Positions 6,092 to 37,200 of a stretch of 64,000 bases of DNA are shown here, piece after piece. How positions within the stretch are numbered: position 1 is the first letter of the stretch; every line of letters begins with the position of its first letter. The translations under genes were made by a program, and so were the position numbers. The DNA is from Rhodocyclaceae bacterium (GTDB taxonomy: Bacteria > Pseudomonadota > Gammaproteobacteria > Burkholderiales > Rhodocyclaceae). The DNA is taken from NCBI GenBank assembly GCA_006218025.1, contig VBWA01000023.1, forward strand, positions 23,848 to 87,847, written 5' to 3'. The notes below the pieces were generated by a model. It was not told the DNA's origin and did no database searches. It saw only the letters and a list, made by a program, of their open reading frames with translations.

Positions 6092-7701
6092 ATACGGCCA
6101 TGTCGATACTTGAACAACTCGAGCGCAAGGGGATCAAGCCGGCGCACCTGACCGCCGACTCGCGGCGCGTGAGCGCCGGCGATGTCTTCGTCGCCTATCC
6201 CGGAGCGCAGGCCGATGGCCGCGACTTCATTGCGCAGGCGGTGGCCAACGGCGCCGCGGCCGTGATTGCAGAGGCCGGACGCAACGCAACTGCGAGAGTC
6301 GGCGCTGGCTCGCTCTGCGTACCTGGGATTCCGCTTCGCGGGCAGGCAACGCCGATTGTCGAAGTGACAGGGCTCGCGGCGCTCTCCGGCGAAATCGCGC
6401 ACCTGGTGTACGGTCGTCCCTCCGAGCATCTCTGGCTCGCCGGTGTGACCGGCACCAATGGCAAGACCTCGGTATCGCAATGGATCGCGCAGGCGATGAA
6501 CGCCCTGCCGTATCTGCCGCCGGGCCGCCCCAAGGCAGATACAGCCAATAATATGGAGTCGCGCAGCGACGAACAGTTGTCACCCCTTTCCACGGGAAAG
6601 GGGCCGGGGGAAAGGCGCCACAAGTGCGCCGTGATCGGCACGCTGGGCAACGGCTTCCTCGACTCGCTCGACGAAAGCCCCAACACCACGCCCGATGCCA
6701 TCACCCTGCATGCGGCGCTCGCCGGCTTCGTTGCTCGCGGCGCGGAAGCCTGCGCGATGGAGGTTTCGTCGATCGGCCTCGACCAGGGGCGTGTCAATGG
6801 CGCGGCCTTCGACGTCGCCGTGTTTACCAATCTGACCCGCGACCACCTCGAATATCACGGCACGATGGAGGAGTATGCGGCGGCCAAGGAACTGCTGTTC
6901 CTGACGCCCGGCCTTGCCGCCGCCGTGCTCAACCTCGACGACCCTGTCGGGGTCGCGCTTGCCGCCAAGCTCAGGGGGCACGTGCGAACCATCGGCTATA
7001 CGCTGGCCGGGGCCGACGGCATTGGCGCAGATGAAATCCTCCGCGCGGAAAACCTGAACATGGGGGCCGCCGGCGTCGAGTTCGATGTGCGCGGCGTGCA
7101 TTTCACGGCGCCCGTGGTGGGGCGCTTCAACGTTTCCAATCTGCTGGCGGTGATCGGTGCGCTGCTGACGCGCAACGAGCGCCCCGAGGACATTGCTGCC
7201 GCCCTGCGCCGCATTCAGCCGCCGCCAGGACGCATGCAGGCGGTCGGCGGCGTGAATGAACCGCTGATCGTGGTGGACTACGCCCATACGCCGGACGCGA
7301 TGGAAAAAGCGCTCGGCGTTCTGCGCGAAACGGCGGTGGCGCGCGGCGGACGGCTGATCTGCGTCTTCGGTTGCGGCGGCGAGCGCGACCCCGGCAAGCG
7401 GCCGCAGATGGGTGCGATTGCCGAGCGTCTGGCCGATCGCGTGGTCGTCACCAGCGACAACCCGCGCAAGGAAGATCCGCAAGCCATCATCGACGACATC
7501 CTCGCCGGGCTGCAGCGCGCGCCGAACGTCGAGATCGATCGCGGCCGCGCCATTGCAGCTGCGGTGGCCGATGCGGATAGGCGCGACGTGATCCTGCTCG
7601 CCGGCAAGGGCCATGAGCCCTATCAGGAAATCGCCGGGGTGCGGCATGCATTCTCCGACCTCGATGCCGCAAAGTCGGCGCTGGCGGGACGGCGCTCATG
7701 A
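6088..7701 (+). CDS. murE: UDP-MurNAc-tripeptide synthetase MurE, with in-frame insertions
   Basis: 537 residues, about 40 longer than typical. It adds meso-diaminopimelate to UDP-MurNAc-L-Ala-D-Glu: the DNPRKEDP motif marks the meso-DAP enzyme and GTNGKT is the ATP-binding loop. GTG 6088 overlaps the ftsI stop; ATG 6100 is the alternative. Two stretches look extra compared with the family. Residues ~65-87 include a copy of the short motif (6294-6309). Residues ~141-178, between the ATP-binding helix and the [11 protein letters not shown] block, contain the two-hairpin element at 6558-6615. Both keep the frame open, so the enzyme is probably functional; it is essential and no second murE is visible here. 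Confidence 0.92.
6294..6309 (+). repeat. SIM copy in murE (short match)
   Basis: GAGAGTCGGCGCTGGC shares the core but not the ACGGCG end. It lies inside a stretch of MurE that looks inserted relative to the family. Confidence 0.4.
6510..6542. repeat. Additional hairpin flanking the murE two-hairpin element
   Basis: GTATCTGCC (6510-6518) is perfectly complementary to GGCAGATAC (6534-6542). It lies within the same extra stretch of MurE, 15 nt before the first arm of the two-hairpin element. Confidence 0.5.
6558..6615 (+). repeat. Two-hairpin element (THE) copy 1, in frame inside murE
   Basis: Hairpin 1 is GTCGC-GCA-GCGAC (6558-6570). A 12-nt spacer ends in GTCA. Hairpin 2 pairs CCCCTTTCC (6583-6591) with GGAAAGGGG (6595-6603). 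A G-rich tail GGGGGAAAGG ends at 6615. It is translated in frame as part of a MurE insertion. Confidence 0.75.
7671..7694 (+). repeat. SIM copy at the murE 3' end
   Basis: AAAGTCGGCGCTGGCG followed by GGACGGCG. It encodes the last residues of MurE (KSALAGRRS), immediately before the murE/murF overlap. Confidence 0.65.
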
Positions 7702-9176
7702 TGATGACCCTGCACGAGGCTGCCGCCGCCATCGCTGCCCGCGCGCAAGGCGCCGACGACGCCTTCAGCGGAGTCTCCACCGATTCGCGCAGCATCGCCG
7801 CCGGCGAACTTTTCGTCGCGTTGATCGGCGACAAGTTCGACGGCCACGCCTACGTCGCCGACGTGCTCGCGCGTGGCGCCAATAGTGCCGCGGGCGCGGT
7901 GGTGAGCGAGGAGTTCGCCGCCGCCCATCCCGATCTGCCGCTGATCTGCGTCGCCGACACGCGCCTGGCGCTCGGTGCGCTGGCGGCGCAGTGGCGCGGA
8001 CGATTCACGATTCCGCTGCTGGGCATCACCGGCAGCAACGGCAAGACCACGGTCAAGGAAATGTGCGCGGCGATTCTGCGTGCGCAGTTCGGCAGCGCGG
8101 ACTCCGTGCTGGCCACTGTCGGCAACCTCAACAACGACATCGGCCTGCCGCTGACCCTGCTCAGGTTGCGCGCCTCGCACCGCGCCGCGGTGATCGAGAT
8201 GGGCATGAACCATACCGGAGAGATCGACTATCTGACGCGCCTCGCGCAACCTTCCGTGGCGCTGGTGAACAACGCCCACCGCGCGCACCTCGAGGGTCTC
8301 GGCTCGGTGCAGGATGTCGCGCTGGCCAAGGGCGAAATATTCACCGGGCTGGGGGCGGATGGCGTCGCCGTATTCAATGCCGACGACGCACATGCCGATA
8401 TCTGGCGCGAACTTTCGCGCGATCGTCGTCAGCTGACGTTTGGCCTCGACCAGCCCGCCGACGTACAAGGACAGTTCACCAGTCACGGCCTCGGCGGGGA
8501 ATTGCAACTTGCCACCCCGTGGGGAGCGCTCACGGTGACGCTGGCCGTGCCGGGCAGCCACAACGCCAGCAATGCCTGTGCGGCAGCGACGGCGACACTG
8601 GCAGCAGGCGCGTCGCTCGGCGCGGTCGAACAGGGACTGACAGGCTTTGCCGGCATCAAGGGCCGGCTGCAACGGCGAGCCGGTCGCGAAGGCGCGTGCG
8701 TGGTGGATGACAGTTACAACGCCAATCCCGATTCGATGCGGGCCGCGATCGACGTGCTGGCGTCGGTGCCGGGCAGGCGCATCCTGGTCATGGGCGACAT
8801 GGGCGAGGCGGGGGCTGCCGCAGGGCAGTTCCACGACGAGATCGGCGGCTATGCCAAGAGCCACGGCATCGACCGCCTGCTGTGCCTCGGCGAATTGTCG
8901 GCGGCGGCGGCACACAATTTCGGCGCGGGCGGCCAGCACTTTCCGCGCGTCGAAGACTTGATAAAAACCCTGCTGGCCGAGCTCGAGGCGCAGACCACGG
9001 TGCTGGTCAAGGGATCGCGCTTCATGCGCATGGAGCGCGTCGTCGACGCGATCGTGGACAGCGCCGACGCAGGGCCGTCCCAAGGCGGCGCAAGCCATCA
9101 ACCGGAGCGGGCGCAGCCCGCGAACAGCCGTCACCCCCTTCCCGGGGAAGGGGGCGGGGGAAAGGTAAATGAATAA
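7698..9176 (+). CDS. murF: UDP-MurNAc-tripeptide-D-Ala-D-Ala ligase MurF
   Basis: 492 residues. It adds D-Ala-D-Ala to the UDP-MurNAc tripeptide in the cytoplasm. The ATP loop [10 protein letters not shown] is near residue 112, and the family C-terminal block [13 protein letters not shown] is present. ATG 7698 overlaps the murE stop (ATGA). The last ~35 residues after that block are not family sequence; they are Pro/Gly-rich and are largely encoded by the two-hairpin element at 9107-9165. The stop overlaps the mraY start by one base. Confidence 0.94.
9107..9165 (+). repeat. Two-hairpin element copy 2, end of murF and upstream of mraY
   Basis: Hairpin 1 is GCGGGC-GCA-GCCCGC (9107-9121). A 12-nt spacer ends in GTCA. 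Hairpin 2 pairs CCCCCTTCCC (9134-9143) with GGGAAGGGGG (9145-9154). The tail GGGGGAAAGG (9156-9165) lies 10 nt before the mraY ATG and is the only good ribosome-binding sequence for mraY. Confidence 0.8.
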
Positions 9177-10345
9177 TGCTGCTTGAACTCGCTCAATGGC
9201 TGGCCAAGGATCTCCGCGCCTTCAACGTCTTCGGCTACATCACGCTGCGCGCGGTGCTGGCGACCATGACCGCACTGGCGATTTCCTTCGTCTTCGGTCC
9301 GGCGGTGATTCGCTGGCTGGCGGCGAAGAAGATCGGCCAGTCGGTGCGCAGCGACGGGCCGCAAACGCATCTGATCAAGGCCGGCACGCCGACCATGGGC
9401 GGCGCGCTGATCCTGATCTCGCTCGGCGTGTCCACGCTGCTGTGGGCGGATCTGTCCAATCGCTTCATCTGGATCGTGCTGATAGTCACCTTCGGCTTCG
9501 GCGCGATCGGCTGGGTCGATGACTGGCGCAAAGTGGTCTATCGCAATCCTGCCGGGCTTTCGGCCCGCTCCAAGTTCTTCTGGCAGTCCGTGGTGGGCCT
9601 GGTCGCCGCAATCTACCTCGCATTCTCGATCTCGGCGCCCAACAACGAAAAAGTCGTCCAGCTGTTCTTCCAGTGGGTGTCCTCCGGCTTCACGCTGGAA
9701 CTGCCGCAGCAGACCGCCCTGATCGTGCCCTTCTTCAAGAGCGTGACCTATCCGCTCGGCATGTTCGGCTTCATCCTGCTGACTTACCTGGTGATCGTCG
9801 GTAGCAGCAATGCAGTGAATCTGACCGACGGCCTCGACGGCCTCGCGATCATGCCGACGGTGCTGGTCGGCGCCGCGCTGGGCATCTTCACCTACGTCGC
9901 GGGCAACTCGGTGTTCTCCAAATACCTGCTGCTGCCCTACATTCCGGGCGCCGGCGAGCTGACGGTATTCTGCGGCGCGCTGGCCGGTGCCGGGCTCGGC
10001 TTCCTGTGGTTCAACGCCTATCCCGCCGAGGTGTTCATGGGCGATGTCGGCGCCCTGGCCCTCGGCGCGGCGCTCGGCGCGGTGGCCGTGGTCGCCCGCC
10101 AGGAAATCGTGCTGTTCATCATGGGCGGCGTCTTCGTCGCCGAGACCCTGTCGGTGATGCTCCAGGTCGGCTACTTCAAGTACACCAAGAAGCGCTACGG
10201 CGAAGGCCGGCGGATCCTGCTCATGGCGCCGCTGCATCACCACTTCGAGCAGACCGGGTGGAAAGAGACGCAGGTGGTGGTGCGCTTCTGGATCATCACG
10301 ATTCTGCTCGTGCTGTTCGGCCTGTCGACGCTGAAGATACGATGA
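9176..10345 (+). CDS. mraY: Phospho-N-acetylmuramoyl-pentapeptide transferase MraY
   Basis: 389-residue polytopic membrane enzyme that transfers phospho-MurNAc-pentapeptide to undecaprenyl phosphate, forming lipid I. About ten hydrophobic segments are visible, with the catalytic/Mg2+ loops [13 protein letters not shown] and FMGDVGAL and the histidine-rich PLHHHFE block. ATG 9176 overlaps the murF stop (TAATG). Its ribosome site appears to be the G-rich tail of the preceding two-hairpin element. Confidence 0.97.
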
Positions 10346-11751
10346 ATCTCGCCGGCAAACACGTCCTCGTTCTCGGCCTCGGCGAATCGGGGTTGGCCTC
10401 TGCGTGCTGGTGCGCGCGGCAGGGCGCACGGGTGCGGGTGGCCGATACGCGTACGGCGCCGCCGTATCTGGACGAGTTGAATCGCCGTGTCACCAGCGCC
10501 GACTCGCAGCTTGAATTCGTTGCAGGCGAGTTCGACAAGGCGCTGCTCGACGGCATCGACCTGCTGGTGTTGTCGCCGGGACTCTCGGGCGGGCTGATGG
10601 TGGTGATCCACGCGCGCGCCGCCGGGATTCCGGTGGTCGGAGAGATCGAATTGTTCGCCCAGGGCCTGCGCAGTCTGAATTCGAGCGCTCCGGTGCTGGC
10701 GATTACCGGCACCAACGGCAAGACCACCACCACCGCGCTGACCGGGCATCTGCTGCGCGGCACGGGGAAGACGGTCGGTGTCGCCGGCAACATTTCTCCT
10801 GCGGCCCTGACGGCATTGATGGATGCGCTGGATGCCAATGCCCTGCCGCAGATCTGGGTGCTCGAGCTGTCGAGTTTCCAGCTGGAAACCACCGAGACGC
10901 TGAATGCCGCCGCGGCAACGGTGCTCAACATTTCCGACGACCATCTCGATCGCTACATCGACCTCGACGAATACGCATCGGCCAAGGCCAAGGTCTTTCA
11001 GAGCGCCGAGGGCGCGCCCGGCGTCCAGGTGCTGAATCGCGACGATCCGCGCGTGTGCCGCATGACGCTGCCCGACCGCCAGATCATCAGCTTCGGCCTC
11101 GACGCACCCGCCGGCGAGGATGACTTCGGCCTGCGCCAGCATCGGGGCGAAGTCTGGCTGGCGCAGGGTCAGCGCCTGTTGCTGCCGGTCTCCGAATTGC
11201 CGCTGGCCGGGCTGCACAATGCGGCCAACGCGATGGCGGCGCTGGCGCTGTGCAGCGCGCTCGGCTTCGATGCAGAAACCTTGCTGCCGGCTTTGCGCAG
11301 TTTCCGCGGCTTGCCGCACCGGGTCGAGCAAGTGGCCGAGATCGGCGGTGTGACCTGGTATGACGATTCCAAGGGCACCAACGTCGGCGCCACGGTCGCC
11401 GCACTGAATGGCATTGGCGGACTGGGGCGCAAGATCGTGGTGATTTTGGGGGGTGACGGGAAAGGACAAGACTTTTCTCCGCTTGAGAAAGCCGTGGCGA
11501 CGCACGCGCGCGCCGCAGTGCTGATCGGCCGCGACGGGCCGCTGATCGAGAAGGTCATCGTCGGCACCGGGGTGGCGATCGAAAACGCAGCCGACATGGG
11601 TGATGCCGTGCGGCGGGCCCGGCGCAGGGCGCAGCCGGGCGATGCCGTACTGCTGTCGCCGGCCTGCGCCAGCTTCGACATGTTCCGCAATTACGAGCAT
11701 CGGGCGCAGGTATTCGTCGCCGCAGTGCACGCACTGGAGAGCGAAGCGTGA
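10342..11751 (+). CDS. murD: UDP-N-acetylmuramoylalanine-D-glutamate ligase MurD
   Basis: 469 residues, ATG 10342 overlapping the mraY stop (ATGA). It adds D-glutamate to UDP-MurNAc-L-Ala. The N-terminal nucleotide-binding fold ([10 protein letters not shown]), ATP loop [10 protein letters not shown] and C-terminal domain block [11 protein letters not shown] are all present. Residues ~48-55 (RRVTSADS) are encoded by a reverse-strand copy of the short interspersed motif. Confidence 0.96.
10483..10505 (-). repeat. SIM copy in murD
   Basis: Plus strand reads CGCCGTGTCACCAGCGCC then GACTC. It is read as RRVTSADS in MurD, almost the same peptide as RRVASADF in ArgJ. Confidence 0.6.
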
Positions 11752-12911
11752 GCCGCGCCTATGCCGCGCCGGCGCAGCGCGCGCCCGCCGAGCTCGACGC
11801 CTTCCTGCTGTGGCCGGCTGTCGGGCTGCTGCTGCTGGGATTGGTGATGGTGTATTCGTCCTCGATCGCGATGGCCGAGGGCAGCCGCTTCACCGGCAAC
11901 CAGTCGGCCTATTTCCTGTTCCGCCACGCGGTGTTTCTCTGCGTCGGATTGGTCGCCGGCATCATGGCCTTCCAGATTCCGTTGCGCCTGTGGCAGCAGG
12001 CGGCACCCTGGCTGTTCCTGACCGGAGTCGTGCTGCTGCTGCTGGTGCTGATTCCCCATGTCGGCCGTTCGGTCAACGGCGCCCAGCGCTGGATCGGCCT
12101 CGGCCCGATCAACCTGCAGCCTTCCGAATTGATGAAGCTTTTCGTCGTGCTCTATGCCGCCGACTACACCACGCGCAAGCTCGACGACATGGGCAGTTTC
12201 CTGCGCGGTTTCGGGCCGATGGCACTGGTCATGGTGCTGGTCGGATTCCTGCTGCTGAAGGAGCCGGACTTCGGCGCGCTGGTGGTGATCCTCTGCATCG
12301 CGACCGGCATCCTGTTTCTCGGCGGCATCAATGCGCGGGTGTTCGGCGTGCTGGTGGTGGTGCTGGCGGTCAGCTTCGTCATCATGATCTGGGTCTCGCC
12401 CTATCGGCGCGAGCGCATCTTCGGTTTCATGGACCCCTGGCAGGACGCCTTCGGCAAGGGCTACCAGCTCTCGCACGCCCTGATCGCCTTCGGCCGCGGC
12501 GAGTGGTTCGGCGTCGGGCTCGGCGCCAGCGTCGAGAAGCTGTTCTATCTGCCCGAGGCGCATACCGATTTCCTGCTGGCGGTGATCGCCGAGGAACTCG
12601 GCTTCGTCGGTGTCTGCGTCGTGGTCGGGCTGTTCGCCCTGCTGGTGCAGCGCTCCTTCGCCATCGGCCGCCAGGCGCTGGTGCTCGGCCGCGTGCATTC
12701 CGGTCTGGTCGCGCAAGGCATCGGCATCTGGCTCGGCGTCCAGGGCTTCATCAACATGGGCGTGAACATGGGCCTGTTGCCGACCAAGGGTCTGACCCTG
12801 CCGCTGATGAGCTTCGGCGGTTCGGGCATCGTCGCCAACTGCCTGGCGCTCGGCATCCTGTTGCGGGTGGACTGGGAGAATCGACAACTGATGCGGGGCC
12901 AGCAGGTATGA
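11748..12911 (+). CDS. ftsW: Peptidoglycan glycosyltransferase FtsW
   Basis: 387-residue SEDS-family polymerase that works with FtsI at the septum. About ten transmembrane segments are visible, with conserved blocks [36 protein letters not shown] and [11 protein letters not shown]. The GTG start overlaps the murD stop (GTGA), and the first transmembrane helix begins near residue 20. Confidence 0.96.
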
Positions 12912-13966: not shown

Positions 13967-13976
13967 AAGGCACGCC

Positions 13977-15403
13977 ATGAAACACAAAGTCAAACGCATC
14001 CACTTCGTCGGCATCGGCGGCTCGGGCATGTCGGGCATCGCCGAGGTGCTGGCGAATCAGGGCTACGAGGTCAGCGGGTCCGATTTGAGCGAGAGTGCGA
14101 CGACGCGGCGCCTGGCGGCGCTGGGCATCCGCATTGCGATCGGCCACAGCGCGCAGAACGCCGCGACGGCCGATGCGGTCGTGGTGTCCACCGCCGTGCG
14201 CGAAGACAACCCGGAAGTGGTCATGGCGCGCGAGCGCCGCGTGCCGGTGGTGCCGCGGGCGCAGATGCTGGCGGAGCTGATGCGCATCAAGCAGGGCATC
14301 GCGATCGCAGGCACCCATGGCAAGACGACGACCACCAGCCTGGTCGCCAGCCTCCTGGCTGAGGGCGGCCTCGATCCGACCTTTGTCATCGGCGGCCGGC
14401 TGAATTCCGCGGGGGCCAATGCGAAGCTGGGCAGCGGCGAATTCCTGGTGGCCGAGGCCGACGAGTCGGATGCCTCCTTCCTGTATCTGTCGCCCGTGGT
14501 TTCGGTGGTCACCAACATCGACGCCGATCACATGGAAACCTACGGCCATGATTTCGGCCGGCTGAAGCAGGCCTTCGTCGATTTCCTGCATCGCCTGCCC
14601 TTCTATGGCGTGGCCGTGGTCTGCGGCGACGACGCCAACGTGCGCGAGATCATGCCGCGCGTGGCGAAGCAGATCGTCACCTACGGCATCGACAGTGAGG
14701 TCAACTTCCGCGCCGAAGACGTGGTGGCCGATGGCGGCACGATGCGCTTCACCTGTGTGCGCACCAACGGCGGCGTCAGTCGCTTGCCCATCGTGCTCAA
14801 TCTGCCGGGGCGGCACAATGTGCTCAACGCGCTGGCCGCCATTGCGGTGGCGACAGAAGTCGGCGTTGGCGACACGGCGATCATCCGGGCCCTGGCCGAG
14901 TTCCGGGGCGTCGGCCGGCGCTTCCAGCGCTACGGCGAGCTTGCCTGCCCGGCGGGCGGAACATTTACCCTGGTCGATGACTACGGCCATCATCCGGTGG
15001 AAATGGCCGCGACGCTGGCGGCGGCGCGCGGCGCTTTCCCCGGCCGCCGGCTGTTCCTGGCGTTTCAGCCGCATCGCTACACGCGCACACGGGATTGTTT
15101 CGAGGATTTCGTCAAGGTGCTGTCCGGGGTCGATGCGCTGGTGCTCGGCGAAGTGTATGCCGCCGGCGAGGCACCGATCATCGCCGCCGACGCCCGCGCG
15201 CTGGTGCGTGCCTTGCGCGTTGCCTGCGCGCAAAGCGCCATTCCAGGCATGCAAGGCACCGGCAAGGTCGAGCCGATCTTCGTCGAAGACATCGCGGCCA
15301 TGCCGGCAGCGATTCTCGCCGCGGTGCGCGACGGCGACGTGGTGATCACCATGGGCGCCGGTTCCATCGGCGGCGTGCCGGGGCGATTGAGCGGGGCAGC
15401 TGC

Positions 15404-15407
<4 letters not shown>
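13977..15407 (+). CDS. murC: UDP-N-acetylmuramate-L-alanine ligase MurC
   Basis: 476 residues. First amino-acid ligase of the pathway. ATG 13977 gives the conserved N-terminus with [11 protein letters not shown]; an in-frame start 75 nt upstream would lie inside murG and is rejected. The ATP loop is [10 protein letters not shown], and DDYGHHPVE is the C-terminal signature. A short-motif copy (14856-14879) encodes EVGVGDTAI. Confidence 0.96.
14856..14879 (+). repeat. SIM copy in murC
   Basis: GAAGTCGGCGTTGGCGAC then ACGGCG; one base of the core differs (GTT for GCT). Confidence 0.5.
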
Positions 15408-18036
<2,629 letters not shown>

Positions 18037-18037
<1 letters not shown>

Positions 18038-19269: not shown

Positions 19270-19295
19270 TTCAGTGGGTCTAAAAGGAGGCGAGT

Positions 19296-23082: not shown

Positions 23083-23087
23083 GCTTC

Positions 23088-23108: not shown

Positions 23109-23110
23109 CA

Positions 23111-23119: not shown

Positions 23120-23182
23120 TCCCTCCTTGTTTTCACGGCCAATTTGCGGCCGCGCACCCCATGATCTCCGGTTTTGGTTCCA

Positions 23183-23210: not shown

Positions 23211-23242
23211 TTTCTCTGAAGCCAGTTTCTGACTGATAAAAA

Positions 23243-25930
<2,688 letters not shown>

Positions 25931-26243
25931 GTTGAGCCAGGAGCGGCACCCGACACTGATCGAGGACGGCGAGTCCGTCCTCATTCTCGACCAGACACGC
26001 TTGCCGCGCGAAGCGGTGATGCTGCGGCTGGCCACCCTGGAAGATGTCGCCCACGCCATTCGCGTCATGCAGGTACGCGGTGCGCCGCTGATCGGAGCTA
26101 CCGCCGCCTACGGCGTGGCACTAGGGCTGACGGACGATGCCGGCGATGCACGTCTCGTCGAGGTGATCGATACGCTTGCCGCGACGCGGCCGACCGCCGT
26201 CAATCTGCATTGGGCCCTGGCACGTATGCGCCGTGTGCTGCAA

Positions 26244-26266
26244 GAGTCGGCGCTGGCGACACGGCG
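26244..26266 (+). repeat. SIM copy in mtnA
   Basis: GAGTCGGCGCTGGCGACA then CGGCG, read as ESALATRR. This same reading ([14 protein letters not shown]) recurs in hrpA and in the second dehydrogenase. Confidence 0.65.
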
Positions 26267-26329
26267 CCAAGCCGCCTGGAACGAAGCGCGCGCCATCGCC
26301 ACGGAAGACAAGGCCGCCAATGCGAAGGG

Positions 26330-26350
26330 GGTGCGCGTGCCGCGCCCCCC
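26330..26350. repeat. GC-rich hairpin at the left side of the mtnA insertion
   Basis: GGGGG(T)GCGCG pairs with CGCGCCCCCC around a TGC loop. It flanks the two-hairpin element, as the extra hairpin does in murE. Confidence 0.45.
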
Positions 26351-26367
26351 AAGGGGAAATCGGACAG

Positions 26368-26427
26368 CCATCCCCCCAGCCCCCTTCCCGGGGAAGGGGG
26401 TGACTATTTCAGGCAGGCTGCGCCTGC
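26368..26427 (-). repeat. Two-hairpin element copy 3 (reverse), breaking mtnA
   Basis: On the plus strand, hairpin 2 pairs CCCCCTTCCC (26380-26389) with GGGAAGGGGG (26391-26400). A 12-nt spacer begins TGAC, then hairpin 1 is GCAGGC-TGC-GCCTGC (26413-26427). Same order and spacing as copies 1 and 2 in reverse. Confidence 0.8.
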
Positions 26428-26979
26428 AATCGTGAATGTCATGACCCATTGCAACGCCGGACGCCTGGCGACCGTTGAACATGGCACGGCGCTCGCGCCG
26501 GTGTATGCGGCGCACGCGGCCGGTTTGCCGGTTCATGTCTGGGTCTCCGAAACGCGACCGCGCAACCAGGGGCTGCTCACCGCCTGGGAACTCGCCGAGA
26601 CCGGCGTGCCGCATACCCTGATTGCCGACAACGCCGCGGGCCTGCTGTTGATGCAGGGCAAGGTCGATCTGGTGATCGTCGGCGCCGACCGCATTGCCGC
26701 CAACGGCGACACGGCGAACAAGGTCGGCACCTATCTCAAGGCACTCGCCGCGCGCGCCCATGGCGTGCCCTTCTATGTCGCGGCGCCGCTGTCGACCATC
26801 GATTTCGCCTGCGCTTCGGGCGCTCAGATACCCATCGAGGAACGCGCCGCGGATGAACTCGGCGCTGGCAACACACCGGTCGCGAACCCGGCTTTCGACG
26901 TGACGCCGGCAGACCTGATCAGCGGCATCATCTCCGAGCGCGGCATTGCCCGGGCCGGCGAGCTTGGGCAGTGGAAGCC

Positions 26980-27624
26980 ATGAGCGATCCCGCCACTGGT
27001 TTGGCCAGCAAGGTGCTCGCCACGGCGCGGGCGATGAACGCCTCGGGCATCAATCGCGGCAGCGCAGGGAATGTCAGCGCGCGCTGCGAAGGCGGCTTTC
27101 TGATCACGCCGACCGGCATGGCCTACGACGACTGCGAGCCTGCCGACATGGTGAAAGTCGGCGCTGATGGTACGCCGACCGGCCGCCGCAAGCCTTCATC
27201 CGAATGGCGTTTCCATCGCGACATCTATGCCGCATGGCCCGAGGCGGGCGCCGTGGTGCATACCCACTCGCCCTTCGCCACCGCGCTGGCCTGCCAGGAG
27301 CAGGGTGTGCCGGCGTTTCATTACATGGTGGCGCGCTTCGGCGGCGCCGACGTGCGCTGCGCCGCGTATGCCACTTTTGGCAGCCAGGAACTGTCGGATG
27401 CCATCATCAGCGCCCTTGCCGGTCGCTGCGCCTGCCTGATGGCGCATCACGGCCTGGTGGTGTTCGGCCGCGACGTGGATCACGCACTGGCCCTGGCGAT
27501 CGAGCTGGAAACTTTGTGCGAGCAGTATTGGCGGGTGCTGCAACTGGGCGCGCCAAAGCTGCTGCCGTCCGACGAAATGACGCGCGTGATCGCGAAGTTC
27601 GCCACCTACGGACAGCAGGACTGA
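26980..27624 (+). CDS. Class II aldolase/adducin family protein (Ald2/MtnB-like)
   Basis: 214 residues from ATG 26980, overlapping the mtnA stop (ATGA). The class II aldolase fold is clear: GNVSAR, TPTGM, KPSSEW, the zinc ligands VHTHS and the C-terminal HHGLVVFG. Next to mtnA two roles fit: methylthioribulose-1-P dehydratase (MtnB), or the aldolase of the DHAP shunt, which cleaves (methylthio)ribulose-1-P to DHAP and an aldehyde. No other mtn genes follow, so I favour the aldolase. L-fuculose-phosphate aldolase is a third possibility. Confidence 0.8.
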
Positions 27625-27649
27625 ACAGCCCCGCAGCCCGACGCGCCTC

Positions 27650-28648
<999 letters not shown>

Positions 28649-28780
28649 GGTGGCTGCCGTCGATGGACAAGAAGGCGGGAATTATACCGACCAGGCGTTC
28701 TGGCTTGCGGCAAGGCTACTGCGCCGTGGAGCCCGTCTTTGCTGCTATTCTGGGCGTCATGTCCAGCGCTGGTTGATCGC

Positions 28781-31700
28781 GTGAACGCACTTTCCCTGAA
28801 ATCGATTCTCACTACCGATGTAGTGACTTGCCGCACCGAAGAGGTGCTGGGCGAGGTGCTGCGCGTCATGGAGCGCAATCGGATCAGCTGCGTTGTAGTG
28901 GTCGATGAAGAACGGCGTCCCTGCGGCATTTTCACCGAGCGCGATGCCGTGGCCCTGCTGGCCGCGGACGGGCTTTCTCCGACAAGACCCGTTGGCGAGG
29001 TGATGAGTTGCCGGGTGGTGAGCTTTTCCCTTCCGTTCGATTCGCGCGATGCGTACCGGCTCATGCTGGCGAACGATGTGCGCCATCTGGTGGCCGTGGA
29101 TCCCGGGGGCCGGGTCGCGGGCGTGCTGACCGAGGCGGATCTTCTTGCGGAGTTCGGCGACGTCGATCCGCTCGCTGGCGGCGCATCGCCGGGCGACGCC
29201 CTGCGTCGCGAAGCCGTCGGGTCCGGTGGGCGCGACGGCGAGTTCGGCCGGCACATGATTCTGGGTGGCGTCTTCGACCGCATCGGTGACGGCATTTTCC
29301 TGGTGGACGCCGCGAGCGGTGTCTATGTCGAAGCCAACGACAGGGCTTGCGAGTTTCTTGGCTATTCGCGCGACGAAATTCTTGGCCGCCACGTCTGGGA
29401 GATTTCCACCAGTTTTGCGGATACCGCGGCGTGGCGTGCAAGAAATGCGGATTTGAGCGACAAAGTGCGAGTGGTCAATACCGACTTTCGGCGCCGCGAC
29501 GGCAGCCTGCTCCCGGTCGAGGTTCGCGTTTATCAGGTGCACGATGGCGAGCGCCTGCTGCATGTAGCGATTTTTCGCGACGTCTCGGCCACGCGCAAGA
29601 TCGAAGCCGCGCTGCGCGAGGGCGAACGCTACTATCGGCATGTGATCGACAGCGCCGTCGACGGCTATTTCGCCATGGACCCGCAGCGCCGCTTCATTGA
29701 GGTCAATGACACGCTGTGCACTCTGTTCGGCTATCCACGCGAGGAATGGCTGGGACAAACGCCGATCGGCTTCATCGCCGAGGAGAGCCGTGCCGAGCTG
29801 ATCGCCCAGATGCAGCGCATCGACACCACCGATCGCCGCCGTTATCAACTGCTTGCCCGGCGCAAAGATGGCAGCACATTCCCCATCCTGCTCAACAACA
29901 CGACCCATCGCAACGAGGAGGGCGAGATCGTCGGTTCTTTCGGCTTTATCACCGATCTGACGCCGATTGTCGAAGCGCAGCGCGCCGTGGCCGAATCGGA
30001 GCGCGAGCTGCGCGGAATTCTCGACGACCTGCAGGATACCTACTACCGTACCGACCAGACCGGCACGATCGTGCGCGCTTCGCGCTCCGTCGAACAACTG
30101 CTCGGCTATACGGCGGAGGAGATGCTGGGCCGCAAGCTGGCCGATTTTTACTGCTCGCAGGCCGACCGCGACGAGTTTCTCGCCAGGATGCAGGCCAATG
30201 GCGGACATATCGTCGGTGGCGAGTCGCGCTTGCGGCACAAGGACGGCCACGAGCTGTGGGTACTGACCACGGCGCATTTCATTCGTGACGCCGCCGGCAA
30301 TATCGTCGGCGTCGAGGGCACCACCCGCGACAACACCCGCCAGCGTCGCGCCGAAGAGGAGTTGCGACTGGCGGCAAAGGTGTTCGAGAGCAGCGGCGAA
30401 GCGATCATGATCACCGACGCCGAAGGCTGCATGATCTCGGTTAACCACGCGTTTTCAAGGATTACAGGCTATGCCGCCGCCGATGCCGTCGGCCGCAACG
30501 CCAGCGTGCTGGCGTCAGGCAGGCATGGCCGCGAGTTCTTTGCCGAGATGTGGCGCGAGATGCTCGATTCCGGATACTGGCATGGCGAGATATGGAATCG
30601 GCGCCGCAATGGCGAGGTCTTTCCCGAGTGGCTGGGCATTTCGTCGGTGCGCGATGCGAATGGAAGGATCACGCATTTTGTCGGGATATTCTCCGACATC
30701 AGCGAACGCAAGGCGGCCGAAGCCAAGATCGCGTTTCTCGCCCATCACGATCCGCTGACGGGCCTGCCCAACCGTCTGCTGCTGAAGGATCGCATGGAGC
30801 AGGCCATGGTTCACAGCGAGCGCAGCGGCAACAAGGTGGCGCTGTTGTTTGTCGATCTCGATCGCTTCAAGGCGGTGAATGATGCCTTCGGCCATCCGGT
30901 GGGTGATGCGCTGTTGCGCGATGCGGCGCAGCGACTGCTGGACTGCGTGCGCGACTCCGACACGATCAGCCGTCATGGCGGTGACGAATTTCTGGTGGTG
31001 CTCACGGATATGACCAGTTCCGAAGTGCCGGCCCAGATCGCCGGCAAGATAATGGCGGCGCTGGGCGAACCGTTTCACATTGAAGGGCACGAGGCGACGA
31101 TCTCCGCCTCGGTCGGCATTGCGGTATATCCGGAAGACGGCGCGGCGTTCGACGAGCTGCTGAAGAAGGCCGACATCGCCATGTACCACGCCAAGGAAGC
31201 CGGTCGCAACGCCTTCCGTTTCTACACCGAGCGCATGAACGCAGATGCGCAGGCAAGGCTGGATCTGCACAGCCGCCTGCGCCGCGCGGTTGAGCGCGGG
31301 GAGTTCGTACTGCACTATCAGCCGCTGGTCGATCTGAGGAGCGGCCGCATCGTCGGCGGCGAAGCGCTGCTGCGCTGGCAGAGCCCCGAGCACGGGCTGA
31401 TCGGGCCGGAGCATTTCATTGCCGCCGCTGAGCACAGCGGCCTGATCGTGCCGCTCGGCGAATGGGTGTTGCAGGAAGCCTGCCGTGAGCTCGCGCACTG
31501 GCACGCGCAGGGCTACCTGGAGCTTTCAGTGGCGGTGAATATCTCCGCCATCCAGTTTCGCCGCGGCGATGTCGAGGAGACCGTGCTGCGCGCGCTGGAT
31601 GCCGCAGGCGCGACACCTGCGGCGCTGGAACTGGAACTTACCGAGTCGATCCTGATCGACGGCGCCGAACAGGTGCTGGCGACCATCACGCGCCTGCAGG

Positions 31701-32026
31701 CGCTGGGTGTGAGGCTGGCGATCGACGATTTCGGTACCGGCTATTCCAGCCTCGCCTACCTCAAGCGCTTCGCGGTGGACAAGCTGAAGATCGATCAGTC
31801 ATTCGTCCGCGACATCGTGACCGATCAGGACGACGCGGCGATCGTGCGCGCCGTGATCCAGATGGCCCGCAGCCTCGGCCTGAAGGTGCTGGCCGAAGGC
31901 GTCGAGAGCGAAGCGGTGGCCGCCGAACTGCGCGCCATGGATTGCGATCTGGTGCAGGGCTACCATTTCGGCCGGCCCATGCCGGCCGCAGAATTCCGTC
32001 GCCTGATCGGCACGGAACCGGGCTAG
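28781..32026 (+). CDS. CBS-PAS(x4)-GGDEF-EAL cyclic-di-GMP signalling protein
   Basis: 1081 residues, GTG 28781. Order: a pair of CBS domains (residues ~1-125), four PAS domains (~159-280, 284-405, 410-525, 530-650), GGDEF (~653-815) and EAL (~827-1075). GGDEF is intact at 733-737, with an RDSD inhibitory site five residues before it. EAL is intact at 861-863 and the [10 protein letters not shown] loop is present. Both synthesis and hydrolysis of c-di-GMP are therefore possible. No transmembrane helix is seen, so it is a cytoplasmic sensor; CBS domains may sense adenine nucleotides and PAS domains redox or ligand cues (inference). No good ribosome site is visible, so the start is uncertain. 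Confidence 0.9.
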   Translation: MNALSLKSILTTDVVTCRTEEVLGEVLRVMERNRISCVVVVDEERRPCGIFTERDAVALLAADGLSPTRPVGEVMSCRVVSFSLPFDSRDAYRLMLANDVRHLVAVDPGGRVAGVLTEADLLAEFGDVDPLAGGASPGDALRREAVGSGGRDGEFGRHMILGGVFDRIGDGIFLVDAASGVYVEANDRACEFLGYSRDEILGRHVWEISTSFADTAAWRARNADLSDKVRVVNTDFRRRDGSLLPVEVRVYQVHDGERLLHVAIFRDVSATRKIEAALREGERYYRHVIDSAVDGYFAMDPQRRFIEVNDTLCTLFGYPREEWLGQTPIGFIAEESRAELIAQMQRIDTTDRRRYQLLARRKDGSTFPILLNNTTHRNEEGEIVGSFGFITDLTPIVEAQRAVAESERELRGILDDLQDTYYRTDQTGTIVRASRSVEQLLGYTAEEMLGRKLADFYCSQADRDEFLARMQANGGHIVGGESRLRHKDGHELWVLTTAHFIRDAAGNIVGVEGTTRDNTRQRRAEEELRLAAKVFESSGEAIMITDAEGCMISVNHAFSRITGYAAADAVGRNASVLASGRHGREFFAEMWREMLDSGYWHGEIWNRRRNGEVFPEWLGISSVRDANGRITHFVGIFSDISERKAAEAKIAFLAHHDPLTGLPNRLLLKDRMEQAMVHSERSGNKVALLFVDLDRFKAVNDAFGHPVGDALLRDAAQRLLDCVRDSDTISRHGGDEFLVVLTDMTSSEVPAQIAGKIMAALGEPFHIEGHEATISASVGIAVYPEDGAAFDELLKKADIAMYHAKEAGRNAFRFYTERMNADAQARLDLHSRLRRAVERGEFVLHYQPLVDLRSGRIVGGEALLRWQSPEHGLIGPEHFIAAAEHSGLIVPLGEWVLQEACRELAHWHAQGYLELSVAVNISAIQFRRGDVEETVLRALDAAGATPAALELELTESILIDGAEQVLATITRLQALGVRLAIDDFGTGYSSLAYLKRFAVDKLKIDQSFVRDIVTDQDDAAIVRAVIQMARSLGLKVLAEGVESEAVAAELRAMDCDLVQGYHFGRPMPAAEFRRLIGTEPG

Positions 32027-32030
32027 CCGG

Positions 32031-33791
32031 CTACTTTCCCTTCGTCCACGAATCCTTCAGCGTCACCGCGCGGTTGAACACCGGCGCACCGGCTTTGGAG
32101 TCGAGGCGGTCAGCGACGAAATAGCCGTGGCGCTCGAACTGGAAGCGGTCTTCGGCGGCCGCGTCCTGCAGCGCCGCTTCGAGTTGCGCGGTGATGACGA
32201 CCTTCGAATTCGGGTTGAGATCGGCGATGAAGTCGCTCCCATCCGCGCCGGGTGCCTCGGCGGCGAACAGGCGGTCGTACAGGCGCACTTCGGCGGCATA
32301 GGCGTGCTTCGCCGAGACCCAGTGGATATTGCCCTTGACCTTGTAGTTGTCGGAGCCCGGCGTGCCGGATTTGGAATCGGGCATGTATTCGCAATGTATT
32401 GCCGTGATCCTGCCGTCGGCATCCTTGTCGCAGCCAATGCACTTGATCACGAAGCCGTAGCGCAGGCGCACGGTGTTGCCGGGGAACAGCCGGAAGTAGC
32501 CCTTGGACGGCGCTTCCATGAAGTCCTCGCGCTCGATCCAGAGTTCCTTCGAAAACAGCACCGGGCGCTTGCCCCACTCGGGCTTTTGCGGATGATTGGG
32601 GGCGAGGCATTCTTCTTCCTGCCCTGCCGGGTAGTTGTCGATGACCAGCTTGACCGGATCGAGCACGGCGATGCGGCGCGGCGCCGTTTCGTTGAGGTGC
32701 TCGCGCTGGCATTCTTCCAGCACGCTGATGTCGATCCAGGAATCCGACTTGGTGACGCCGTTCATTTCGTTGAAGCGGCGGAAGGCTTCGGGCGTGAAGC
32801 CGCGGCGGCGCGCCCCGACCAGGGTCGGCAGGCGCGGATCATCCCAGCTGTCGACGTAGCCCTCCTCGACCAGCTGGATCAGCTTGCGCTTGGATAGCAC
32901 GACGTAGGAAAGATTCAGCCGGGCGAATTCGATCTGCTGCGGCAGCGGCGTATTGACGCAATCGAGCTCGGCCAGCCGCGTCAGCAGCCAGTCGTAGAAG
33001 GGGCGCTGATCCTCGAATTCCAGGGTGCAGATGGAGTGGGTGATGTTCTCCAGCGCATCCTCGATGGGATGGGCGTAGGTGTACATCGGATAGATGCACC
33101 AGGTGTCGCCGGTGGCATGGTGGGTGGCGTGGCGGATGCGGTAGATGGCCGGGTCGCGCAGGTTGATGTTGCCCGAGCTCATGTCGACCTTGGCGCGCAG
33201 GATGTGCGTGCCGTCGGCGAACTCGCCGGCCTTCATGCGGCGAAACAAATCGAGATTCTCGGTCGGGGTACGATCCCTGTACGGCGAGTTCTTCCCGGCC
33301 TCGGTCAGCGTGCCGCGGCTGGCACGCATTTCGTCGGCGGATTGCGAATCGACGTAGGCATGGCCGGCTTCGATCAGCCTCTCGGCGAAGTCGTACATCC
33401 ACTGGAAATAGTCGGAGGCGAAATACTGGTTGATCGTGCCCGCATTTTCCCAACTGAAACCCAGCCAATGCACGGCGTCGATGATGGAGTCGACATACTC
33501 CTGCTCTTCCTTTTCCGGATTGGTGTCATCGAAGCGCAAGTGGCAGGCGCCGCCGTAATCCCGCGCCAACCCGAAATTCAGGCAGATCGACTTGGCATGG
33601 CCGAAGTGCAGGTAGCCGTTGGGCTCCGGCGGGAAGCGGGTACGGATTTTTGCCGTGTCGCCAGCGCCGACTTTCTGCTGTGCGGCCGGGCCGGGTTTGC
33701 CCGACCAGTGGCGAGTGGCATAGACATCGGCGGCCAGATCGGCATCAATGATGTGACGAATGAAGTTGGAAGGTTTTTCAATATCAGCCAT
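32031..33791 (-). CDS. glnS: Glutaminyl-tRNA synthetase
   Basis: 586 residues from ATG 33791 (MADIEKPSNF); an upstream ATG at 33806 would add five residues. Class I synthetase with HIGH-like YLHFGHA and KMSKS-like VLSKRKL. Just before TRFPPEPNGYLH there is a linker longer than in E. coli GlnS, part of which (KVGAGDTA) is encoded by a short-motif copy. Its stop is 4 nt from the convergent EAL gene stop. Confidence 0.96.
   Translation of the reverse strand: MADIEKPSNFIRHIIDADLAADVYATRHWSGKPGPAAQQKVGAGDTAKIRTRFPPEPNGYLHFGHAKSICLNFGLARDYGGACHLRFDDTNPEKEEQEYVDSIIDAVHWLGFSWENAGTINQYFASDYFQWMYDFAERLIEAGHAYVDSQSADEMRASRGTLTEAGKNSPYRDRTPTENLDLFRRMKAGEFADGTHILRAKVDMSSGNINLRDPAIYRIRHATHHATGDTWCIYPMYTYAHPIEDALENITHSICTLEFEDQRPFYDWLLTRLAELDCVNTPLPQQIEFARLNLSYVVLSKRKLIQLVEEGYVDSWDDPRLPTLVGARRRGFTPEAFRRFNEMNGVTKSDSWIDISVLEECQREHLNETAPRRIAVLDPVKLVIDNYPAGQEEECLAPNHPQKPEWGKRPVLFSKELWIEREDFMEAPSKGYFRLFPGNTVRLRYGFVIKCIGCDKDADGRITAIHCEYMPDSKSGTPGSDNYKVKGNIHWVSAKHAYAAEVRLYDRLFAAEAPGADGSDFIADLNPNSKVVITAQLEAALQDAAAEDRFQFERHGYFVADRLDSKAGAPVFNRAVTLKDSWTKGK
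33653..33675 (-). repeat. SIM copy in glnS
   Basis: Plus strand CCGTGTCGCCAGCGCCGA then CTTTC. Identical over 23 nt to the copy in argJ (50076-50098), though genes and reading frames differ. Confidence 0.7.
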
Positions 33792-33841
33792 GGTGGCGGT
33801 GGGCATTGCGGCGAAGCTGCAATTCTACCGGCAGGCGTAAA

Positions 33842-34234
33842 ATGACGACAATGAATTGGACAAGTCTTCTCGCCATCGGCGGCGGTGCCGTATTGGGCGC
33901 CTGGCTGCGCTACGGGCTGGGGCTCTGGCTGAATCCGGTGTTCGTCGCCGTGCCGATGGGCACGCTCGCCGCCAACCTGATCGGCGGCTATCTGGTCGGT
34001 GCCGCGGTGATGGTGTTCCACATCAATGCCGAGATGCCGGCCGAACTCAAGCTGTTCTTCATCACCGGCTTCCTCGGCGCGCTGACCACCTTCTCGACTT
34101 TTTCGGCGGAGGTGGTGCACCTGATCCAGAGCGCTCGCTACGGTTGGGCGGCAGGTGCCGCCGCCTTGCACCTGTTCGGTTCGCTCATCATGACCGGGCT
34201 GGGGATTTTCACCATCCACAAGCTGGCGCAATGA
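33842..34234 (+). CDS. crcB: Fluoride-specific ion channel CrcB/Fluc
   Basis: 130 residues, four hydrophobic helices. The conserved GTLAANLIGGYLVG and TTFSTFS (phenylalanine box and Na+ site) motifs identify a Fluc channel, which as a dual-topology dimer exports fluoride. ATG 33842 is preferred; the ATG at 33851 is possible. No fluoride riboswitch is recognisable in the 50-nt gap to glnS. It overlaps hrpA by 4 nt. Confidence 0.93.
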   Translation: MTTMNWTSLLAIGGGAVLGAWLRYGLGLWLNPVFVAVPMGTLAANLIGGYLVGAAVMVFHINAEMPAELKLFFITGFLGALTTFSTFSAEVVHLIQSARYGWAAGAAALHLFGSLIMTGLGIFTIHKLAQ

Positions 34235-37200
34235 GGTTCGACCCCGAGGCGCGGCGGGCGGCGCGGCCCGCGCTGAGCTATGACGAAGCGCTGCCGGTGA
34301 ATGTGCGGCGGCAGGAGATCGGCGCGGCCATACTCAAGAACCAGGTGGTGGTGATCTGCGGCGAGACCGGCTCCGGCAAGACCACCCAGTTGCCCAAGAT
34401 ATGCCTTGAAATCGGCCGCGGGCTCAATGGCCTGATCGGCCACACCCAGCCGCGGCGCATCGCCGCGCGCGCCACCGCGACGCGCATCGCGCAGGAGCTG
34501 AAGTCCGAGCTCGGCCGCCATGTCGGCTTCAAGATCCGCTTCACCGACCGCGTCACCTCGGACAGCTACATCAAGCTGATGACCGACGGCATCCTGCTCG
34601 CCGAAACCCAGACCGACCCGCTGCTGCGACAGTACGACACGATACTGATCGACGAAGCCCACGAGCGCAGCCTGAACATCGACTTCCTGCTCGGCTATCT
34701 CAAGCAGCTGCTGCCCAGGCGGCCGGACTTGAAGGTCATCGTCACCTCGGCGACGCTCGACGCCGAGCGTTTCAGCAAGCACTTCGATGGTGCTCCTGTC
34801 ATTGAAGTTTCAGGCCGACTGTATCCGATCGAAACGCGCTTCCGCCCCTTCGACGAGAAGAAGGACAGCGACCTCAACGACGCCATCGTCGATGCCGTCG
34901 ACGAAGCCCATCGCACGGGGCCCGGCGACGTGCTGGTGTTCCTGCCCGGCGAGCGCGAGATACGCGAGGCGGCTGAGGCGCTGCGTAAGCATCATCCACC
35001 CGGTCTCGAAGTGCTGCCTCTGTTTGCACGGCAGACCGCCGTCGAGCAGGCCCGCGTCTTCGCGTCGCACCAGGGGCAGCGCGTGGTGCTGGCGACCAAC
35101 GTCGCCGAGACCTCGCTGACCGTGCCGGGCATCCGCTACGTGATCGACTCGGGGCTGGCGCGCGTCAAGCGCTACTCGCATCGCAGCAAGGTTGAGGCCC
35201 TGCAGGTCGAGCCGATTTCGCGCGCGGCGGCCAGTCAGCGCGCCGGGCGCTGCGGTCGGGTCTCGGCCGGCGTCTGCTTCAAGCTCTACGACGAGGAGGA
35301 TTTCAATCAGCGGCCGGCCTACACGGAACCGGAGATCCTGCGCTCCAGCCTTGCCGGCGTCATCCTGCGCATGAAGTCGCTGCACCTGGGCGACGTCGAG
35401 GACTTCCCTTTCCTCGAAGCGCCGCTGCCGCGCATGATCGCCGACGGCTACCAACTCCTGACGGAGTTGGGAGCTTTAACCACACCCCCTCCCAGCCTCC
35501 CCCGCCAGGCGGGGGAGGTGACCGATCAGCCCGCTGGCGCGGGAAATGAACAGTGGCAACTCACGCCACTTGGACACGAGCTGGCGAAACTGCCACTGGA
35601 CCCGAAGATCGGCCGCATGATCCTCGCCGCACGGGAGCACAACTGCCTGCGCGAAGTGCTGATCATCGCCGCCGCGCTGGGCACCCAGGACCCGCGCGAC
35701 CGGCCGCAGGAGCATGCCGCGACGGCCGATCAGGCCCACGCCAAGTGGAAGGACGAGAAATCCGAGTTCCTTTCCTACCTGAAACTCTGGGCCGCCGGCG
35801 ACGAAATCTGGAAGCACGAGACATCGAACAAGCAGCGGCAGTGGTGCCGGCAGAATTTCATCAACTGGTTGCGCCTGCGCGAGTGGCGCGACGTGCATGG
35901 CCAGCTGATGACCCTGTGCCACGAACACGGCTGGAAGGAGAACCAGATTCCCGCTTCCTACGAGGCGATCCACAAGGCGCTGCTGACCGGCCTGCTCGGC
36001 CACATCGGCCTAGTCAGCGAAGAAGACAAGAACTACCTCGGCGCGCGCGGCATCCGCTTCTACATCCATCCCGGCTCGTCATTGATCAAGAAGGCCGGGC
36101 GCTGGATCGTCGCCGCCGAACTGGTGGAAACCTCGCGCCTGTTCGCGCGCTGCATCGCGAAGGTCGAGCCGGAATGGCTGGAGCAGGTCGGCGCGCATCT
36201 GATCCGCAAGCATGTCTATGAGCCGCACTGGGAGAAGGGCCCGGGCCAGGTCGTGGCTTGGGAGCGCGTGACGCTGCACGGCCTGATGCTGCATGCCAAG
36301 CGGCGCGTGCATTACGGGCCGAGCGATCCGAAGCTCGCGCGCGAAATCCTGATCCGCGAGGCGCTGGTCGAGGGTCAGGTCGGCGAAGACTGGGTGCGCA
36401 AGTGGCGCTTCTTCCAGCACAACGCCAAGCTCATGAAGGAAATCCAGGCGCTGGAGCACAAGTCGCGGCGGCCCGATGTGCTGGTCGATGACGAGCTGAT
36501 TTACGCCTTTTACGACGACAGGATTCCCGAGGGCGTCATCACGCTGGCGGCCTTCGATCACTGGCGGCGCGAGGCCGAGGCCGCCAACCCGAAACTGCTT
36601 TGCCTGGAAAAGGAGCAGTTGATGCGCCACGAGGCGGCGGGCATTACGACCGACGCTTTTCCGCCGGCACTGACCCATCGCGGCCAGAGCTTCAGGCTCA
36701 GTTACCACCATGACCCCGGCGCGGCGGACGACGGCGTCACGCTGACGTTGCCGCTGGCCGCGCTCAACCAGCTGCCGGCCAATCGCTGCGAATGGCTGGT
36801 GCCGGGCCTGCTCAAGGAAAAGATCCTCGCGCTGCTGAAGACGCTGCAACAGAAGTACCGCCATCGCCTGCAGCCGCTCGACGAGTTCGCCTCGGACTTC
36901 TGCGAGACCGAACATGATCTCGACGAGCCACTGGTGCGCGCGCTGACGCGAGCCGCGGAGGAGCATCTGGCGATGAAGCTGCCGCTCGACGCCTTGCGCA
37001 GCGGCGAGTTGCGCCCTCACCTGTTCATGAACTTCCGCCTCACCGACGAGCATGGCGGCACGCTGGCCATTTCGCGCAACCTGGCCGAATTGCGTGCCGA
37101 GTATCGCGACCGCGTCGAGCAGGCCTATGCCGCGGCGGAAATGCAGCACGAGGCCGCGGCCGGCGATTTGTCCGGGCTCACCGCGTGGACCTTCGGTGCC

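Follow-up and report, generated by a model that had tools for sequence, protein, structure and literature searches.

Palindromic elements at stop-start overlaps and within genes of a Rhodocyclaceae bacterium, some sharing a terminal hairpin with the host gene

How can a palindromic repeat settle inside conserved genes and tight operons, and where do its hairpin arms come from? These questions are raised by a 64,000-nt stretch of contig VBWA01000023.1 of a Rhodocyclaceae bacterium (hereafter the window, meaning the whole stretch), in which four copies of a structured repeat, here c1 to c4, lie within genes or at a gene junction. On balance, we favour the reading that these are non-autonomous palindromic elements found at stop-start overlaps and in genes, likely spread by a transposase, with a terminal hairpin likely written and matched to its surroundings by template switching during replication.

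Anatomy and distribution of the element

The core of the element consists of two hairpins, H1 and H2, accompanied in many copies by an extra terminal hairpin that is either a 5′ hairpin (H0) or a 3′ palindrome (H3). A full copy reads, in order, H0 (an arm of ~9 nt, GCMGGGCCGYCCCAA, and the second arm), AGCCA, H1 (4-6 bp), a spacer, RTCA, H2 (≥9 bp) and a G-rich tail, and H0 itself combines a variable stem with a constant 15-nt loop. The element adds about 60-125 nt, the full length being about 100-125 nt. The copies in the window and their parts are as follows (ORF, open reading frame).

6507 to 6614, forward strand: copy c1, a 108-nt in-frame insert (36 codons) in the murE ORF 6088-7701, whose ends are accurate to one or two bases
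6507 to 6545, forward strand: hairpin H0 of c1, with arms 6507-6518 and 6534-6545 and the constant loop 6519-6533 (GCCGGGCCGCCCCAA)
6558 to 6570, forward strand: hairpin H1 of c1, GTCGC gca GCGAC
6579 to 6615, forward strand: GTCA head, H2 (6583-6603) and G-rich tail of c1
9060 to 9174, forward strand: copy c2, an insert at the murF-mraY junction, with approximate ends
9061 to 9091, forward strand: hairpin H0 of c2, GCGCCG ... CGGCGC
9107 to 9165, forward strand: H1, H2 and G-rich tail of c2, with GGGGGAAAGG upstream of the mraY ATG at 9176
26369 to 26428, reverse strand: copy c3, comprising H1, H2 and tail, within a putatively mtnA-like gene (IF-2B family)
35485 to 35545, reverse strand: copy c4, comprising H1, H2 and tail, within the HrpA-like helicase ORF 33856-38028

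For the two-hairpin core, a covariance model (R1) was built from six copies including c1-c3, leaving c4 as the only independent match among the four; c1 to c4 scored 78, 70, 70 and 33 bits, respectively (E values of 5e-13 to 2e-4 in the window). No Rfam model matched the window at its gathering score. In the bacterium's own genome, 71 same-sense matches were obtained at E≤1, among them 70 full-length and 59 at E<0.01; they derive from 81 rows at E≤1 after removal of 10 antisense partial rows, with the same-sense partial copy C18:70480 retained. This count is a lower bound because 150 of the 1213 first-look candidates were scored, and c4 itself is not among the matches listed by that scan. Using stricter filters than for the own genome, genus-wide and family-wide scans detected 8-85 matches in each of 31 same-genus genomes (own included), matches in two of the six other genera of the family that were sampled, and, in a family sample at E≤1e-6, matches in 50 of 199 genomes and 21 of 68 genera. 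None of 24 genomes from other families of the same order carried a match. An exact-pattern scan of species genomes returned 54 stretches, 53 of them from records of Rhodocyclales, betaproteobacteria, Proteobacteria or Pseudomonadota and one from Gammaproteobacteria; 53 of these loci were followed up, L078 being omitted as a duplicate of L062. Tandem copies with a unit of ~111-122 nt were present in other genomes, and about four tandem 113-nt copies that are 99% alike at one locus (L342) were counted as a sign of activity.

To examine the pairing, 32 full copies were aligned, out of 34 H0 copies (C107:20663 and C104:71931 were omitted). The three helices were 92.8% paired, and the covariation score was 0.487; shuffles averaged 0.142 (s.d. 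0.014), with none of 500 reaching the observed value, and structures slid along the alignment never exceeded 0.094. Both-sided changes occurred in 17 of the 22 pairs. Immediately before H2, columns 78-81 of this alignment (A5) read G in 28 of 32 copies, T in 32, C in 31 and A in 31, that is GTCA, and the column preceding GTC(A) was C in 12 of 32. The first two pairs of H2 were C-G in 31 of 32 copies each, its loop is 3 nt in the model, and a G-rich tail follows. By motif, H0 was located upstream of 39 of the 71 copies (38 convincing), and H3, taken as a palindrome score of ≥9, in 18 of the 32 without H0. Terminal inverted repeats were not evident among 37 H0 copies, the longest end match averaging 5.0 (maximum 8) against 4.4 (maximum 6) in the control.

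The first-pass annotation, which had described four copies built as hairpin 1, a spacer ending in GTCA, hairpin 2 and a G-rich tail, with pairing kept by covariation, was right in the places, the plan and the pairing, and the family that it had proposed extends to the copies counted above. Its two-hairpin plan recurs as the core of the family, but full copies are longer, and H0 had been missed in c1 and c2. Neither finding that it had named as refuting occurred: further copies are numerous, and the murE and HrpA-like inserts are missing from relatives.

In addition, a ~75-nt two-hairpin cassette (GCGGAGCACTGCTCCGC and GCCGGCYGGC...GCCGGCC) was observed in the H2 loop of some copies and their orthologues, namely at L338, L250, L252, L307, L310, L311 and L314 and, in the own genome, at C20:2655, C86:164438, C3:50447 and C18:70480.

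Insertion into genes and at stop-start junctions

Comparison with relatives identified the copies as insertions. At murE, 11 of 12 aligned same-genus relatives lacked the insert, and the own genome (G000) and G013 share the exact position of a 108-nt insert, whose H0 stem differs on both sides between the two (GTATCTGCC/GGCAGATAC versus GTCTCTGCC/GGCAGAGAC). When MurE was aligned with chain 8f5d_A of the Protein Data Bank, query residues 139-178 (40 residues) stood opposite 4 chain residues. Among 14 aligned murF-mraY junctions, five were filled (the c2 insert is common to the own genome, G028, G010, G006 and G017), seven were empty and two held different repeats; the MurF frame runs through the c2 insert as a C-terminal extension, and its stop overlaps the mraY start. 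All six relatives compared at the HrpA-like gene were empty, and c4 represents an in-frame net gain of 63 nt (+21 codons). At the mtnA-like locus, one of five relatives was empty, two had inserts longer by a multiple of three and two had other sequence. There, the own genome, with c3, exceeds the empty site by 50 nt and has a broken frame relative to relatives, and the orthologues of c3 in G010 and G006 comprise a bigger insert, with a multiple-of-three gain over the empty site, then a palindrome.

Altogether, 34 of the 45 loci tested had an empty counterpart in one relative or more (20 of 24 further H0 copies, 11 H0-less copies, i.e. 10 of 18 plus c3, together with c1, c2 and c4). Among the 17 in-gene loci for which an empty orthologue exists (16 of the 22 in-gene copies of the gene caller, plus c4), 12 gained a multiple of three, a count biased to kept frames because the gene caller prefers unbroken ones; the remaining gains were near starts (C7:108306 and C3:43839), near stops (c2 and C121:114721) or at c3. 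Only 22 of the 71 copies lay inside predicted genes, though ~93% of the surrounding DNA is coding according to a simple gene caller. The family is thus depleted inside genes, and the coding bias asserted in the first-pass annotation was not supported, stop-start junctions being a frequent location. Its likening of the copies to Rickettsia palindromic elements inserted in genes agrees with the empty murE and HrpA-like relatives and the copies in frame; as to its placing of all four within or at the end of genes, two of them in frame, c1 and c4 are in frame and c2 extends murF, while c3 is out of frame.

Several observations concern these same loci. The murE gene is seemingly mosaic, with 76-77% identity to the two closest relatives over 6088-6510 and 86-88% over 6624-7700, and its insert is 85% identical to that of G013, while the G013 flanks are only 70-76% identical. 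Two other palindromic repeats occupy the same spot as c2 at the murF-mraY junction in L163 and L181. The mtnA-like gene (window 25932-26983) apparently consists of two frames, split at c3 in this genome.

Many copies occupy the gap between co-directional genes, and these junctions carry a characteristic word. ATGA or GTGA was present on both flanks of 8 of 12 forward junction copies with H0, and TCAT or TCAC on both flanks of 10 of 12 reverse ones and of 2 of 4 copies of ambiguous orientation; background windows contained such a word in 9-14% per flank. In empty relatives the word is single, as at C36:6044, where GCCATGAGCGCCTACAAG became ATGAGCGCCT-element-ATGAGCGCCT. The flanking direct repeats, measured as the longest exact match, were 3-13 nt long and mostly contained ATGA or TCAT; their mean was 5.30, compared with 4.70 in pairs permuted within orientation, and none of 200 permutations was as long. 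A short target duplication may be produced at insertion. A copy at ATGA would leave both genes intact because, once ATGA is duplicated, stop and start are both retained, and ATGA sites would predominate through the survival of such copies rather than through target choice.

On start signals and frames as read from the sequence, both ends of the element re-supply Shine-Dalgarno words. In most of the forward copies listed, the tail (GGGGGGAAGG and similar) lies by eye immediately ahead of the next start. In 10 of 12 reverse junction copies, the outer H0 arm contains CTCC, which corresponds to GGAG(G) before the start of the reverse gene; CTCC was also present in the outer arm of 3 of 4 copies of ambiguous orientation, and in none of the 12 forward junction copies and none of the nine in-gene copies (10 of 12 reverse versus 0 of 12 forward, Fisher P 7e-5). 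These copies demonstrate that a repeat can occupy an overlapping stop-start codon within a tight operon and leave the stop and start of both genes readable, and that conserved proteins, MurE among them, are lengthened by 20-36 codons in this way.

The terminal hairpin shared with the host gene

Copies lacking H0 were frequently followed by a palindrome. A score of ≥9 was reached downstream of 18 of the 32 H0-less copies (seven at ≥15), compared with 10 of 600 control windows (none at ≥15), 1 of 32 upstream flanks of H0-less copies and 2 of 39 downstream flanks of H0 copies. Not all of these 18 palindromes are host-matched, a few being conserved element cassettes. At four of the ten loci with empty relatives, the outer H3 arm is clearly host sequence, since at least 75% of its letters are already found in the empty relatives: 18-20 of 23 at C58, 19-21 of 24 at C3:43839, 12-14 of 15 at C33 and 15 of 19 at C14. 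The best palindrome score was 3-9.5 in the 27 empty sites of the ten loci and 9.5-19 in the filled ones, and no full-strength H3 palindrome was present in any of those 27 empty sites. For C1:94623 (26 bp), C65:32727 and C122:102612, the comparison yielded no empty relative; their outer arms look like gene sequence, and the C1:94623 hairpin spans the apparent start of tolR. The genes at C1:94623 (tolR), C3:43839 (miaA) and C33 (FAD-monooxygenase-like) are presumed from encoded motifs rather than a family search.

As an observation on its own, C36:66359, C1:16106 and C18:36306 form a subfamily with a common 3′ hairpin (ACGGGCATGACTTT...AAAGTCATGCCCGT and near variants) in place of the host-matched one.

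The 3′ ends of genes harbour several H3 copies, as expected if these hairpins were intrinsic terminators or chance GC-rich palindromes. This explanation is hardly credible: the core and its covariation are common to dozens of copies, other copies stand at gene starts or within genes, control palindromes numbered just 10 in 600, and the empty-site comparisons disfavour it. No T-run follows the stem in the three gene-3′-end cases read (C14, C65:32727 and C122:102612), and a terminator was rejected for these three.

The inner arm was found to follow the outer arm. Across 45 differences from G000 in the outer arm, the inner arm was Watson-Crick paired at 33, wobble paired at 5 and mismatched at 2, and the remaining 5 fell outside the arm; the figures are summed over 8 loci with 18 orthologues, and because these orthologues, each set against G000, share history, they are not 45 independent events. 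Such tracking is seen at the tolR start in 4 genomes, the palindrome is replaced in the L319 orthologue, and at C14 the loop is, in our reading, inverted between two orthologues (CTTG versus CAAG).

Tracking after insertion is expected from template switching and also from strong selection on RNA pairing. The latter would make the terminal hairpins functional mRNA structures, in translation control or 3′-end protection, that are kept paired by selection alone through compensatory changes. We regard this as possible, though rather doubtful. The strong covariation agrees with it, as do the wobble pairs retained at 5 of the 40 changed cells inside arms and the Shine-Dalgarno words in the outer arms of reverse copies. 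However, G.T did not exceed A.C on the transcribed strand (few cells), the arms vary between loci and lie beside unrelated genes, the loop at C14 reads inverted, and a hairpin over the tolR start would presumably impede translation.

Templating is favoured because the arms pair almost perfectly, differ from locus to locus without relation and are located at gene starts and ends, and because one loop is inverted. A transposase would move the element in trans, and a template switch would copy host sequence into the inner arm, rather than the arm being upheld by selection on mRNA structure alone; as DNA copying slips across the hairpin, the arm in the repeat would change while the neighbouring gene diverges between species. 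Template switching is proposed as a maker and keeper of stems in PMC8794818. A stronger form of this reading, to which we give less than even weight, is that the element end is written from the host: upon insertion, the neighbouring gene would form the hairpin with its own inverted copy in the element, the copy would be rewritten as the gene evolves, and both ends would give a ribosome binding site, so that the operon stays working after insertion at a stop-start overlap.

The following points weigh against templating by a mobile element. Host origin of the outer arm was not clear-cut at five of the ten loci with empty relatives (host letters: C122:25313, 8-11 of 13; C7:39704, 8 of 11; C101, 8-10 of 15; C121:114721, 8-9 of 15; C3:45316, 6-10 of 15), and at C129:41685 the outer arm is not host (3 of 11 letters). 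The empty sites of C33 already contain a weaker palindrome (score 6-9.5), and a single loop inversion was seen. The H0 arms are mostly element-borne and little changed between close orthologues, with six differences, of which four were Watson-Crick paired, one wobble and one unpaired. G.T versus A.C mismatches favour neither strand (in H0, G.T 12 and A.C 8), the cells being too few to choose between RNA selection and DNA templating. The direct repeats range from 3 to 13 nt, and none was convincing at c1, c2 and others. Finally, no mobilising gene was found, Y1_Tnp/RAYT (REP-associated tyrosine transposase; REP, repetitive extragenic palindrome) being the only candidate tested and not linked.

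In IS200/IS605 elements, guide sequences direct insertion by base pairing, as does pairing between exon-binding and intron-binding sites (EBS-IBS) in group II introns. By analogy, the inner arm could be a guide, the element inserting where the arm pairs with the target. At C107, C39:120987, C36:6044 and C1:25045, the outer H0 arm does overlap host sequence that recurs beyond the other end of the insert. Nevertheless, we consider a guide unlikely: most H0 arms are element-borne, host sequence beyond the ATGA is unmatched, and tracking of the outer arm persists after insertion, beyond what a guide alone explains. The H0 left arm as a host guide was also considered as a general rule and dropped, because the c1 insert contains its own left arm and most H0 arms are element-borne.

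At several loci one hairpin is common to element and host gene, which makes paired changes traceable across loci and species and lets RNA selection and templated mutation, as sources of compensatory stem changes, be tested against each other on natural data.

Mobility and comparison with known systems

The first-pass annotation had pointed to a possible RAYT, and mobilisation of the family as REP or REPIN sequences by such a transposase was tested. The short palindromes and high copy number suit it, as does the presence of Y1_Tnp genes in 26 of the 31 genomes of the genus. Nonetheless, five genomes without a Y1_Tnp match (two 99% complete, three 83-90%) carry 19-68 copies; of the 45 Y1_Tnp loci listed, 30 were examined, mostly with 1.5 kb of flank on either side, and no copy was detected in these (best E 0.99). 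Moreover, the family has no GTAG tag, the tetranucleotide at H2 being GTCA, and the five Y1_Tnp genes inspected have flanking inverted repeats of their own. The suggested link was not borne out, and we judge this route very improbable.

The Y1_Tnp genes in L258, L260, L263 and L269 are flanked by the inverted repeat AAAGGGGYCAG..., and that in L272 by a different sequence; these flanks resemble the type with terminal inverted repeats in PMC3733652. A second dense repeat, AGTCGGCGCTGGCGACACGGCG, is present in 16 copies in the 64 kb with ≤4 mismatches (for example 26245-26266, 50074-50095, 33651-33672 and 14858-14879), and in tandem beside the Y1_Tnp gene in L260. At window positions 57482-57607 there are three tandem 41-nt units (ATATCCCGCCAGGGGATACCGTC...), and a similar piece lies beside copy C7:147419.

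Among organisms with described REPs is Thauera, which we take to be a relative of this bacterium. REPs inside genes have been reported from Thauera in Di Nocera 2013. The REPs tagged with CGTC or GTAG (Di Nocera 2013), Thauera GTAG-1 among them, resemble the present family as stem-loops that carry an unpaired tag on one side, which here is the RTCA ahead of H2. However, their tag and stem do not fit it: C precedes GTCA in 12 of 32 copies, H2 starts C-rich, a G-rich tail follows and the length is ~100-125 nt. The stem of 8-9 bp starting with A-T, the 4-5 nt loop and the CCA tail of RPE-4, RPE-6 (RPE, Rickettsia palindromic element) and the CGTC REPs are not found here, and the in-frame insertion of CGTC REPs in genes that are empty in relatives is (c1, 108 nt; c4, 63 nt).

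Bacterial miniature inverted-repeat transposable elements (ERIC, RUP and NEMIS; named in PMC3733652) are alike in size, in having no coding capacity of their own and in gene-adjacent insertion, but the present family has no clear terminal inverted repeats, and no parent insertion sequence was found. The template-switch hairpins of PMC8794818 and the coding palindromes of Nematomorpha mitochondria (PMC6649704) are likewise perfect inverted repeats, the latter within coding sequence; unlike in those systems, the partner arm here belongs to a mobile repeat, and several loci of a single family show the pattern. Searches of the open-licence PubMed Central literature, mostly as listings and the openings of abstracts, turned up no description of the element, nor of any bacterial repeat with host-matched terminal hairpins.

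The closest likeness is to the Rickettsia palindromic elements (RPE-1, RPE-4 and RPE-6) and intragenic REPs, which are also short palindromes, some in frame, limited to a lineage and present in many copies (PMC3733652). The present family differs from the Rickettsia elements in lacking a conserved CGTC tag and in having up to three hairpins; most of its copies lie outside genes, often at operon junctions, and some loci share the terminal hairpin with the host gene. It is accordingly filed as a new palindromic element family that is RPE-like inside genes and has a host-matched terminal hairpin at some loci.

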